A DNA stretch of 64,000 nucleotides, taken from the NCBI GenBank assembly GCA_014379595.1, contig JACMLM010000006.1, positions 1-64,000 on the forward strand, written 5' to 3'. This DNA is from Anaerolineales bacterium. Its GTDB lineage: Bacteria; Chloroflexota; Anaerolineae; Anaerolineales; Villigracilaceae. Positions within the stretch are counted from its first letter, which is position 1; each line of letters opens with the position of its first letter. Shown piece after piece: positions 52,131 to 57,012 of the stretch. The translations under genes were made by a program, and so were the position numbers. Under the pieces are notes generated by a model that ran no database searches, was not told the origin of the DNA, and was given only the letters and a program-made list of their open reading frames with translations.

Positions 52131-52247
52131 TACATAAAGAAATGGATTGCCACATCTTTATAGTTTTAGCATAGCAGTAAAATTATTATTTCAGAAGTAG
52201 GGTTTACCCGTATTGCCAGCGTTTTACATTTCATAAAATTGTTCTAC

Positions 52248-52276
52248 TTGCCAGACGCCAAAGGACATAGTAAACT
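52248..52276 (+). promoter_or_regulatory. Promoter of the metG leader
   Basis: TTGCCA (52248-52253), an exact 17-nt spacer, and TAAACT (52271-52276). The -10 ends 7 nt before the ATG at 52284, so transcription would begin at or next to that ATG and the leader peptide would be leaderless. The 358-bp gap 52131-52488 also contains the peptide, attenuator and a palindrome; the first 115 bp show nothing. Confidence 0.6.
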
Positions 52277-52283
52277 TGGCCTT

Positions 52284-52379
52284 ATGAAATTCAGATCTGC
52301 TTACCCAATGGTGACAATTACCATGGCCATGCGAATGCAAATGGAGATGTTTAACTGCGCCAAGTGGAAAGCACGTTAG
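52284..52379 (+). CDS. Methionine-rich leader peptide of metG
   Basis: A 31-codon ORF (ATG 52284 to TAG 52377-52379). Seven codons are Met: residues 1, 9, 14, 16, 18, 20 and 22, with the run MAMRMQMEM at 14-22. It ends 109 nt before metG. There is no Shine-Dalgarno, but the promoter position predicts a leaderless start. When charged initiator/elongator tRNA-Met is scarce the ribosome should stall in the Met run, while full translation takes the ribosome over the 5' antiterminator arm (52362-52377), which includes the stop codon. No protein function of its own is expected. Confidence 0.72.
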   Translation: MKFRSAYPMVTITMAMRMQMEMFNCAKWKAR

Positions 52380-52430
52380 GTTTACATACCTGAATGAAAA
52401 CGAGCTGTCCATTTTACGGACAGCTTTTTT
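52362..52430 (+). promoter_or_regulatory. Transcription attenuator of metG (antiterminator and terminator)
   Basis: Terminator: AGCTGTCC (52403-52410), loop ATTTTAC, GGACAGCT (52418-52425), then T-run to 52430. Antiterminator: 52362-52377 (AAGTGGAAAGCACGTT) pairs with 52399-52414 (AACGAGCTGTCCATTT) through 14 pairs in 7+3+4 blocks with two single mismatches and one G-U. The antiterminator uses the whole 5' arm of the terminator, so the two are mutually exclusive. The peptide's stop codon begins at the last base of the antiterminator arm. Confidence 0.72.
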
Positions 52431-52445
52431 GTTTGTAAATTTTCC

Positions 52446-52473
52446 GTAGGTGCGGACGGCCGTCCGCACCTAC
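52446..52473. repeat. Perfect 28-nt GC-rich palindrome
   Basis: The arms GTAGGTGCGGACGG and CCGTCCGCACCTAC meet at 52459/52460 without a loop. The sequence lies just upstream of metG's ribosome-binding site (GGAG). It could be a dispersed repeat or a regulatory dimer site; similar GC-rich palindromes occur near 37844. Confidence 0.85.
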
Positions 52474-52488
52474 ATCACGGAGTTCACA

Positions 52489-54279
52489 ATGAACGAAAAC
52501 ATATTAATTGCCATTGCATGGCCATATTCGAATGCTGAAATACACGTTGGAAATATCACGGGTTCTCATTTACCCGGTGACATTATCGCACGCTATCACC
52601 GCCTCAAGGGAAATAAAGTCCTCGTGGTTTCTGGAACAGATTCACATGGCACGCCCGTTGTGCTTGCGGCGGATAAAGAAGGCAAGCCTGTTGAGGAAGT
52701 GTACAAGAGATATCACGAAAGTTTTCTCGAAGTCTTCAAAGGCTATGGCATTACGTACGATATATTCACCACCACGCATAGTGAGAATCATTTCAAGGTT
52801 TCACAGGCGATGTTCCTTGCTTTGCAGAAGAACGGATTCCTTTTCAAGGAGTTCAGCAAGCAATGGTATTCGCCCAGCGCAAACAAGTTCCTGCCCGACC
52901 GCTATGTGGAAGGGACATGTTACATCTGCGGATTCGAAGGTGCGCGCTCCGATCAATGCGATAACTGCGGTAATGTACTTGAGCCTGAAAAGTTGAAAAA
53001 TCCGCGTGCAAAAACTGGTGATGGTGCACTTGAATTGCGTGACACTGAACATTTTTATCTCGATCTTTCCAAGCTCGAACCTGATGTGAAAAACTTTTTG
53101 CAGGAACGCGCTCCACACATGCGCGATACTGTCATCGGTGAATCACTGCGTAAGATCGAAAGCGAAGGTCTCAAGTCGCGCTCCATCACACGTGACTTGG
53201 ATTGGGGCGTCCCCATTCCTGTTGAAGGCTGGACGGAAGCAGGAAAACGCATTTACGTTTGGTTCGAGGCAGTTATCGGCTACCTCTCCGCTCCAATTGA
53301 GTGGAGTCAGGTATCGGGTAATAAAGATGCGTGGCGCGATTGGTGGACGAATCCAAACGCGAAGCAATTCCACTTCATTGGCAAAGACAACATCTTCTTC
53401 CACACATCGCAATGGCCTGCTGAATTAATGGGTGCAGGAAGCGCGTTCATGGAAATCTTTGCAGGCGAGGAAATCCCGTTGACTCTACCGTATGATGTGC
53501 CAGCGAATCAATTTATGAATCTCGAAGGGCAAAAGATCAGCGGCTCGCGCAATTGGGCCGTGTGGGGACTCGATGCATTGACGCGCTATGACCCCGATGC
53601 GCTGCGTTATTACCTCACCGTGAATATGCCCGAAAGCAAAGACAGCGATTGGGATTGGGCAGAATTTGTAGCGCGCAACAACAATGAACTGGTTGCAACG
53701 TGGGGCAACCTTGCAAATCGCGTGTTGGCATTTTGTTATAAGAATTGGGAAGGGCAAGTTCCTGATGTGGATGTGACCACGCTTCGTGACTCCGACTTGA
53801 ACCTGCTCGCCACCATCGAAAACGGATTCAACACTGTGGGCGCGGAACTCGATGCCGTACGCATACGTTCTGCATTGGGCGAAGCGATGAAACTCGCCAC
53901 AGTGGTCAATCAATATCTTGATGTCAATGCACCGTGGTCTGCGGTGAAGACAGATAAAGATGGCGCAAGCAAAACCATCTACACGGCCTTGAAAGCAATT
54001 GACTCATTGAAAGTGATGTTCTCTCCGTTCCTGCCATTCACCTGCGAAAGATTACATACTTTCTTTAATTATGAAACTCCACTTTTCGGCCAGCAATATA
54101 TTGAAGAAGTATCTGATTCGTTGGGAACACACAAGGTGTTGAGATATCGAGGCATTGAAGGCTTGCAATGGAAACCCAGCGACTTACAGCCCGGGAAGAA
54201 GTTGAATCAGCCGGGTCCACTGTTTAAGAAGTTGGAAGAAAGCGTTATTGAAGAAGAACGGGCAAGGTTAGGAAAATAA
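52489..54279 (+). CDS. metG: Methionyl-tRNA synthetase
   Basis: A 596-residue class I aminoacyl-tRNA synthetase charging tRNA-Met. The HIGH-like motif is AEIHVGN (residues about 16-22), the zinc knuckle has CYICGFEG and CDNCGN, the KMSKS-like motif is KISGS, and the anticodon-binding helical domain occupies the C-terminal third. The optional C-terminal tRNA-binding domain is absent. ATG 52489 follows GGAG by 8 nt. It is preceded by a Met-rich leader peptide and attenuator and followed by a terminator. Confidence 0.96.
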   Translation: MNENILIAIAWPYSNAEIHVGNITGSHLPGDIIARYHRLKGNKVLVVSGTDSHGTPVVLAADKEGKPVEEVYKRYHESFLEVFKGYGITYDIFTTTHSENHFKVSQAMFLALQKNGFLFKEFSKQWYSPSANKFLPDRYVEGTCYICGFEGARSDQCDNCGNVLEPEKLKNPRAKTGDGALELRDTEHFYLDLSKLEPDVKNFLQERAPHMRDTVIGESLRKIESEGLKSRSITRDLDWGVPIPVEGWTEAGKRIYVWFEAVIGYLSAPIEWSQVSGNKDAWRDWWTNPNAKQFHFIGKDNIFFHTSQWPAELMGAGSAFMEIFAGEEIPLTLPYDVPANQFMNLEGQKISGSRNWAVWGLDALTRYDPDALRYYLTVNMPESKDSDWDWAEFVARNNNELVATWGNLANRVLAFCYKNWEGQVPDVDVTTLRDSDLNLLATIENGFNTVGAELDAVRIRSALGEAMKLATVVNQYLDVNAPWSAVKTDKDGASKTIYTALKAIDSLKVMFSPFLPFTCERLHTFFNYETPLFGQQYIEEVSDSLGTHKVLRYRGIEGLQWKPSDLQPGKKLNQPGPLFKKLEESVIEEERARLGK

Positions 54280-55648: not shown

Positions 55649-55816
55649 TTAATTGATTCTCAATTTCCGTTTGCCATTCTGACCTAAGAAGAGTTTCTCT
55701 TCGCCCAGCCAAGAATCAATCCAGCCTTCGGCGTTGAGTCGCTGGTAGAGTTCGCGGACGATGGGTTTGTCCTGCGAAGAATGACAGAGGAAAACGCGGA
55801 GTTTGCGTTCAGCCAT
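55649..55816 (-). pseudogene. Truncated TIR-domain gene
   Basis: A 55-residue reading frame. Its first 46 residues closely match the beginning of the complete TIR gene at 55826: RKLRVFLCHSSQDKPIVREL against RKLRVFLCHASQDKPIVRDL. After LGQ the match is lost (NGKRKLRIN) and a TAA follows. The missing part includes the catalytic Glu region. The two are 9 nt apart on the same strand, as expected for a tandem duplication followed by deletion. Confidence 0.82.
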
Positions 55817-55825
55817 AATATTCCG

Positions 55826-56269
55826 TTAAATTCCCAAATTATCCTTGCGAATCTTAAGGCTCGCCTTCAACCTGTCAAAAGCAGATGCCTGATTTGTAGC
55901 TGGGAAATAATCAAGAGATTGTTTGTCTTTAAGCCTGCGGGGTAATTCGCAATCATCTAATCGAATGGGGATAACAAATATCCCACCTTCTAATTTTTCA
56001 AGTGCAATATCCAAAACCTTGCGTAGCTCTTTCTGAACATATCCCTCTTTGGCCACTGAAATACTTGATACACATACAAGCACAGCATCGGAAGATTCGA
56101 CTGCTTTTTCTATTTCTAGATTCCAATCTTGCCCCGGGAGCAGCCTGTCTTCGTCCAGCCAGGAATCGATCCATGATACAGCTAGCAATTTTTTATGTAA
56201 GTCACGGACAATGGGTTTATCTTGTGAAGCATGGCAAAGAAAAACTCGTAGTTTGCGTTTGGCTGGCAT
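55826..56269 (-). CDS. TIR-domain protein
   Basis: A 147-residue TIR domain with no other fused domain. KLRVFLCHASQDKPIVRDLHKKL is the first strand/helix, SWLDEDRLLPGQDWNLEIEKAVESSDAVLVCVSS holds the expected catalytic Glu region of NAD-cleaving TIR domains, and IPIRLDDCELP the last strand. Bacterial TIRs serve in antiphage defence or NAD degradation; sensor partners are usually adjacent but none is seen beyond an HNH gene. GGGAGATC precedes the ATG. A truncated copy lies directly downstream. Confidence 0.88.
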   Translation of the reverse strand: MPAKRKLRVFLCHASQDKPIVRDLHKKLLAVSWIDSWLDEDRLLPGQDWNLEIEKAVESSDAVLVCVSSISVAKEGYVQKELRKVLDIALEKLEGGIFVIPIRLDDCELPRRLKDKQSLDYFPATNQASAFDRLKASLKIRKDNLGI

Positions 56270-56430: not shown

Positions 56431-57012
56431 TTAATCCCAAAATAAGTAATGCATTAATTCTTTTTGAGTCTTTTCAGGTGGGACGTAATTCATCACAAAA
56501 TCTTCATAGGCTTCGGGTGTGCCAAAATTAATTTTGACAAATTCATGGTCAACCAATGTCCCATTACGTTTGCCAATAAATTCTGCATAATTTGAATAAT
56601 GCCATTGCTCAGGCTTAACCACCATTCCTGCCTCAAGCGGGTTTCGGTGAATATATCTGCAAAGATGCAACAGGTATTCATTACGATCTATAAAAATGGC
56701 TTTATAAGGTCCTTCAAACAATGTTCCTGACAGTTCATATTTAGTGTTGAATGCTTTTGTGTAAATATTAAAAATCGCCTGCATAAATTGGCTTACTTCC
56801 ACATCTCCATTTTGCCGCAGGATAAAATGATAATGATTATCCATCAGACAGTAAGCGATCACGGTAATATCGCATTTTTTAGCTTGTTCTTTCAGTAGCT
56901 TCAGAAGAAATATATAATCTCTGTCATTACGAAAGATGATGATTTTATGCGCTCCGCGATTGTAAATATGATAATAGCAATTTGGGTTGAAAACAATTTT
57001 TCTTCGAGCCAT
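56431..57012 (-). CDS. REP-associated tyrosine transposase (Y1 HUH family)
   Basis: A 193-residue Y1 transposase of the TnpA-REP (RAYT) type. CLMDNHYHFILR carries the HUH motif (HxH as NHYHF), the Tyr nucleophile lies in the helix AIFNIYTKAFN, and RYIHRNPLEAGMV is the diagnostic RAYT segment. It is single-copy here and flanked on both sides by REP-like palindrome pairs in homologous 91-nt direct repeats. Such enzymes cut REP hairpins in single-stranded DNA and spread them. It has no resolvase or passenger gene. Likely a domesticated mobile element. Confidence 0.93.
   Translation of the reverse strand: MARRKIVFNPNCYYHIYNRGAHKIIIFRNDRDYIFLLKLLKEQAKKCDITVIAYCLMDNHYHFILRQNGDVEVSQFMQAIFNIYTKAFNTKYELSGTLFEGPYKAIFIDRNEYLLHLCRYIHRNPLEAGMVVKPEQWHYSNYAEFIGKRNGTLVDHEFVKINFGTPEAYEDFVMNYVPPEKTQKELMHYLFWD

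Follow-up and report, generated by a model that had tools for sequence, protein, structure and literature searches.

The question raised by this locus is how metG is controlled in an Anaerolineales bacterium in which a short open reading frame (ORF) crowded with Met codons precedes the gene. The window analyzed in this study is the whole stretch of 64,000 nucleotides, and the gene proposed as controlled, metG, encoding methionine–tRNA ligase, is located at 52489–54279 on the forward strand; its product scored 467 against TIGR00398 (metG; cut-off 336) and also matched PF09334 and PF19303. The initial annotation had proposed that a Met-codon leader peptide and an attenuator govern this gene, and re-reading of the sequence recovered the Met-rich ORF, the promoter, the pairing arms and the terminator that it had described.

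The leader ORF, which is expected to be leaderless, extends from 52284 to 52379 on the forward strand (31 codons, seven of them Met; MKFRSAYPMVTITMAMRMQMEMFNCAKWKAR followed by the stop codon, as read from the sequence), and five of the seven Met residues fall in MAMRMQMEM, the cluster at 52323–52349 (+) proposed as the sensor. The ORF could be extended back to a TTG at 52239, and the position of the promoter together with the comparison of relatives favours the ATG at 52284 as the start. The putative promoter of the leader transcript (52248–52276, +) is composed of a −35 element TTGCCA (52248–52253) and a −10 element TAAACT (52271–52276), which are separated by a 17-nt spacer and match the consensus at 9 of 12 positions, with the ATG 7 nt past the −10 element; the promoter scan, which returned two promoter-like sites against 1.4 in shuffles, is weak taken alone. 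On the same strand and within the ORF, the region 52362–52377 (segment 2, the 5′ arm of the antiterminator) can pair with 52399–52414 (segment 3, its 3′ arm) at 14 of 16 positions, including one G-U pair, and the TAG of the ORF starts at 52377, the last base of segment 2. Segment 3 overlaps the 5′ arm of an intrinsic terminator (52403–52430, +), whose stem (52403–52410 with 52418–52425) is followed by a T-run. Predicted folds further suggested a candidate protector arm, segment 1 (CCAATGGTG, 52305–52313, +), proposed to pair with 52357–52367 when the ribosome is absent. The folding of 52248–52489 surpassed all 200 shuffles (z −3.9), a value that owes part to a separate perfect 28-nt palindrome at 52446–52473.

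The window thus carries clustered cognate codons in a leader ORF (seven Met in 31 codons, before metG), an intrinsic terminator between this ORF and the gene, and an antiterminator that excludes the terminator and is overlapped by the end of the ORF, all of which belong to the classical attenuator. The spacing by which a stall would free the antiterminator and completion of the peptide would block it was also found, for the window and the core group of related leaders, at the usual size of a ribosome footprint.

Upstream regions of metG were then surveyed for ATG-initiated ORFs of 9–60 codons in the last 300 nt before the gene, with at least three internal Met per ten codons. The results revealed such Met-cluster upstream ORFs (uORFs) at 54 of the 54 distinct loci of the window's family, which is an upper figure as these loci were chosen by MetG or leader similarity, and at 38 of 47 further loci of the genome_contigs set. 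The order, class and phylum loci were the higher-scoring rows of the matches and not a random draw; among them the uORF was present at 28 of 59 loci from other families of the order, 2 of 10 from other orders of the class and 3 of 42 from other classes. The reverse strand gave 0/54, 1/47, 2/59, 0/10 and 0/42 for these five sets, and shuffles gave 0.5–1.6% across the survey sets (1.6% for the family and 0.6% for other families of the order). Ten, 32 and three duplicates had been removed from the family, genome_contigs and order sets, respectively, along with one short region from each of the first two. A sample of the family spread over genera (20 loci, 18 genera), in which GTG starts were also accepted within 320 nt and most loci had no leader DNA match, showed the Met cluster at 14 loci; it overlaps the earlier sets at 10 of its 20 loci. 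By the survey criterion, the cluster was absent from the other 6 of these 20 loci and from 31 of the 59 loci of other families, and in family f13 a Met-cluster ORF was detected at L207 alone among 13 loci (L202–L214). Thus, the claim that relatives keep Met-rich ORFs held for all 54 family loci and for 14 of the 20 genus-spread loci.

Of 150 family genomes, 147 contained a match to the MetG protein, in some cases only to a fragment or a related synthetase, and 83 contained a DNA match to 52150–52489. The better leader-DNA matches adjoin metG upstream, and some of the weak ones cover nothing but the palindrome or a small part of the promoter. From these searches 97 distinct upstream regions were compiled, one of which (L002) belongs, like L147, to a leuS-like synthetase and not to metG. 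Many of the surveyed loci are from metagenome assemblies; the order name Anaerolineales was taken from record titles, and family and genus labels are anonymous numbers. Three loci outside the order (L170, L173 and L176; two from other orders of the class and one from another class) combine a Met-cluster uORF, a terminator and a complementary segment, which hints at an older origin.

The neighbourhood of the leader has features of its own. The perfect palindrome between the terminator and the metG start (52446–52473) has copies of 83–94% identity elsewhere in several family genomes and looks like a dispersed repeat. REP-associated tyrosine transposases are known to accompany palindromic repeats, and an ORF at 56431–57012 on the reverse strand, which matched Y1_Tnp (PF01797) and, below the cut-off (58 of 80 bits), the REP-associated tyrosine transposase model NF047646, perhaps goes with repeats of this kind. 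Two adjoining reverse-strand ORFs at 55649–55816 and 55826–56269 carry TIR_2 domains (PF13676); the shorter covers profile positions 1–43 only, barely at the cut-off, and the pair looks like a duplicate and a remnant.

Several lines of evidence point to translation of the leader ORF from a leaderless start. The best Met-rich ORFs mostly follow one plan, namely a −10 element, about 7 nt, an ATG, the Met cluster, a short tail and a stop. In the 56 core regions selected by the presence of both end motifs, with no ORF required, the distance from the start linked to the −10 element to the stop motif was divisible by three and the reading frame stayed open in all 56, the ORFs ranging from 23 to 50 codons. 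The ATG triplets in the leaderless uORFs numbered 483 in frame against 6 and 22 in the other two frames, and Met accounted for 406 of the 2186 residues encoded by core uORFs and for 81 of the 507 encoded by divergent leaderless ones. In 106 leaders located via the terminator motif, a −10 element (e.g., TAAAAT, TAAACT or TACAAT) was found 6–8 nt before the start in 88 (7 nt in 73; 6 or 8 nt in 15), and 18 had none by this criterion. Among the 72 core leaders with a −10 element, 60 had, at a spacing of 16–18 nt, a −35 element agreeing with TTGACA in four or more of its six positions (12.6% in shuffles), and the full hexamer was present in 30. This conserved spacing of −10 and −35 ahead of the ATG leads us to expect that the leader transcript starts at or beside the AUG. 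The leader ORF contains in-frame insertions in some relatives; at L066, L059, L109, L119, L010 and L148 these are palindrome-like (...TLAPGASAG... or similar), and the ORF stays open.

Two other meanings of the Met cluster were considered. The His-rich ORF on the complementary strand, against which the initial annotation had cautioned, was rejected, its CAT codons being the complement of ATG and the reverse strand having no Met cluster at any of the 54 family loci. A copper-binding Met motif was also set aside.

A T-box or SAM-type riboswitch might instead govern metG, the Met-rich ORF being incidental, and the genome does have matches to both classes. The T-box covariance model gave six matches in the whole genome (L140–L144 and L147), two of them over the cut-off, and the genes downstream, judged by eye from their translations, are pheS, valS, thrS, serS, leuS and trpE; two SAM riboswitches also exceeded the cut-off. 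None of the six T-box matches and neither of the two SAM riboswitches lies at metG. The Rfam scan of the window returned no family at the gathering score, and the best E-value at the metG leader under lax settings was 0.41, in agreement with the initial annotation that the locus lacks T-box and SAM hallmarks. In addition, the riboswitch scan of 40 relatives' loci, mainly those with no clear Met uORF, yielded one tRNA and nothing else, and the Met clusters keep frame. A riboswitch with an incidental ORF is therefore extremely improbable at this locus.

The pairings that an attenuator would need were examined in 73 aligned core leaders. The antiterminator arms were paired in 94.6% of cells, compared with 26–56% when the partner was slid by 1–3 columns. 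None of 500 shuffles (mean 0.059) reached the covariation score of 0.070, and seven core sequences have in common a double change from C-G to U-A, whereas one pair with changes on both sides, against a shuffled mean of 1.1, makes the covariation modest. The expectation of paired arms with compensatory changes was thus borne out for the pairing and only modestly for the compensation. The terminator stem, likewise expected to persist in relatives, was paired in all 584 cells of the 73 leaders, with two pairs doubly changed. A stem near GGCTGTCC/GGACAGCC recurs upstream of metG in several families of the order (L177–L201 and the core loci) despite differing leader peptides. The alignment gave no support to an AGGT...ACCT hairpin past the stop, which was paired in 74% of cells, no more than in shuffles. 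Duplex energies gave a weak signal: against mononucleotide shuffles, p ≤ 0.05 was reached by 23 of the 73 core leaders and 17 of the 33 divergent ones. Five of the 54 family leaders and 6 of the 38 genome_contigs leaders had at least 8 contiguous pairs (shuffles, 8.4% and 9.4%), in a test that is insensitive in the core because the core antiterminator carries two mismatches. Of the 70 core leaders measured, 57 had their last Met codon 15 or 18 nt from the TGG; the stop was separated from the terminator arm by 21–26 nt in 71 of the 73 core leaders and 24 of the 32 divergent ones.

In the divergent leaders, segment 2 has another sequence, lies inside the ORF and is often near the terminator's own 3′ arm (GGACAGCC, GGGCAGCC). 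At least 8 contiguous pairs between segment 2 and the terminator 5′ arm were found in 24 of 32 divergent leaders (shuffles, 9.6%). A generic scan found the same at 17 of 24 order loci, a set overlapping the 32 leaders (shuffles, 9.8%), the remaining 7 falling below 8 pairs, and, where a Met uORF and a terminator were present, at both class loci and one of the two phylum loci. The last Met codon lies 15, 16, 21 or 22 nt before segment 2 in 20 of the 32 divergent leaders, and in 19 of the 24 with at least 8 pairs. Swapping the arms between divergent genomes, whose terminator arms are nearly alike, gave no clear difference (18 of 33). In many divergent leaders segment 2 ends 16–22 nt ahead of the stop, which implies that a ribosome at the stop would cover little or none of it; blocking in such leaders may depend on a ribosome still in transit or on a different pairing.

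These divergent leaders also bear on whether the nascent peptide itself arrests the ribosome, perhaps with a ligand, the Met residues being part of an arrest motif and not the sensed codons. The core peptides are alike (FPMVTMTMAM...WKAR), which speaks for such an arrest, but those of other genera and families share little except Met clusters (MKQSVMMMSRFPAQFSAR, MNPMVCSSLGIMMMRPHRPA, METALYLIDIEATAMMLIFSMMMMEMEMQTHTRAARIR), and the conserved end of the core peptide coincides with an RNA arm. We consequently hold peptide arrest to be unlikely, and favour Met codons read as codons.

The effect of ribosome position was modelled by folding with the ribosome footprint masked, scored before the 3′ arm of the terminator exists, in the window and 40 core leaders defined by a strict motif. 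In the window, the antiterminator had a probability of 0.66–0.90 when the ribosome stalled at any of the six internal Met codons, 0.00 when it stood at the stop and 0.55 when it was absent; these values are in line with the proposal that a completed peptide blocks the antiterminator and a Met stall frees it. In the 40 core leaders, the median was 0.83 for a stall at the last Met codon (above 0.5 in 65%), 0.20 at the middle Met codon (42%), 0.00 at the stop (none) and 0.06 with no ribosome (25%). The protector pairing of an untranslated leader is accordingly indicated by the model for the relatives and less clearly for the window itself. At equilibrium the full terminator prevailed in all of these states (P 0.99 for the window), so that the choice between antiterminator and terminator must be kinetic. 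With the last Met codon in its A site, a ribosome would extend about 12 nt past the first base of that codon; at spacings of 15–22 nt, its leading edge would lie shortly before segment 2. Once at the stop codon, it would overlie segment 2 in both the window and the core group.

The state of the empty leader is also what weighs on a model of initiation sensing, by which low fMet-tRNA or poor formylation would empty the leader and the AUG cluster would supply spare starts. Leaderless mRNAs depend on fMet-tRNA and a 5′ AUG, and the leader is expected to be leaderless, which lends this model some appeal. Nevertheless, 483 of the 511 AUGs share the frame of the first, they stand at recurring distances from the antiterminator that fit elongation stalls, and empty core leaders are mostly predicted to lack the antiterminator (the median of 0.06 above), which would be the wrong sign, the window being less clear at 0.55. 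We therefore give initiation sensing little credence.

Considering the ORF, the Met cluster, the promoter position, the alternative pairings, their spacing and their conservation, all evident in the sequence and its comparison with relatives, we propose that the metG leader is very probably a ribosome-mediated transcription attenuator of the trp/his/pheST type, in which the sensed codon is AUG and the leader is expected to be leaderless. Transcription would begin at or beside the AUG, and ribosomes would translate the ORF on a leaderless mRNA in the wake of RNA polymerase. With ample elongator Met-tRNA, the ribosome would reach the UAG and cover segment 2 (52362–52377), allowing the terminator stem at 52403–52425 to form and leaving metG untranscribed. 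When charged Met-tRNA is scarce, the ribosome would stall at one of the clustered Met codons and leave segment 2 free to pair with segment 3 ahead of the terminator's 3′ arm, and the polymerase would enter metG. In an untranslated leader, segments 1 and 2 would pair and the terminator would form. As a counterpoint, scarce Met-tRNA should also limit the leader's own initiation with fMet.

The proposed leader resembles several known systems. The pheM leader peptide attenuates pheST in E. coli, where a leader rich in cognate codons and an antiterminator/terminator switch also control a synthetase gene; pheST senses Phe, whereas the metG leader would sense Met, and it belongs to another phylum. 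To our knowledge, the pheST leader has not been described as leaderless. The trp and his operon attenuators have codon-rich leaders and the same logic of segments 1–4, but they serve biosynthetic operons and other amino acids. T-box leaders likewise read tRNA charging and control synthetase genes, and they bind the tRNA directly with no leader peptide. In PMC1262725, pheST is given as a classical attenuator of gamma-proteobacteria, and candidate classical attenuators are described for trpS and leuS in Streptomyces; the latter were also predicted by comparison, with a leader ORF, an antiterminator and a terminator before synthetase genes, and sense Trp and Leu where the metG leader would sense Met. 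Hence, the view of the initial annotation that trp/his logic acts here on a tRNA synthetase held for the logic and not for its novelty, pheST, trpS and leuS having come before (PMC1262725); sensing of Met looks new.

The same paper states that the methionine operons of Actinobacteria have no conserved upstream RNA structures (PMC1262725). Chloroflexi are counted among the groups with too few data for a judgement (PMC4833913), and neither "Chloroflex-" nor metG occurs in the main text of PMC2965389. No Met-codon leader peptide of metG was found in searches of the open-access literature, which is weak evidence of absence and agrees with the initial annotation, which knew of no such example, and no described case of leader-peptide attenuation in this phylum was found there. 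From the sequence, the metG leader looks new in its sensed amino acid and its lineage, the mechanism being a known one.

If so, methionine, which is also the amino acid that starts proteins, joins those apparently sensed by leader-peptide attenuation, and within one genome different synthetase genes are seemingly read by different systems, with T-box matches at some and a peptide attenuator at metG. The sensing of elongator Met-tRNA through a leader whose initiation requires fMet-tRNA now becomes testable, and relatives offer many natural variants in which the spacing from Met codon to antiterminator recurs and the antiterminator sequence differs. We tentatively raise a further possibility, which we think doubtful as yet, that metG in this order was ancestrally controlled by a leaderless attenuator specific for Met, whose single layout persisted through several rebuildings of its RNA arms, and that this attenuator reads elongator Met-tRNA against fMet-tRNA, because AUG serves both initiation and elongation. 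Were this true, the leader would be a two-sided sensor, in which a mild shortage stalls ribosomes at the internal Met codons and turns metG on and a severe one stops initiation and turns it off, a behaviour that would be impossible for the attenuator of any other amino acid.
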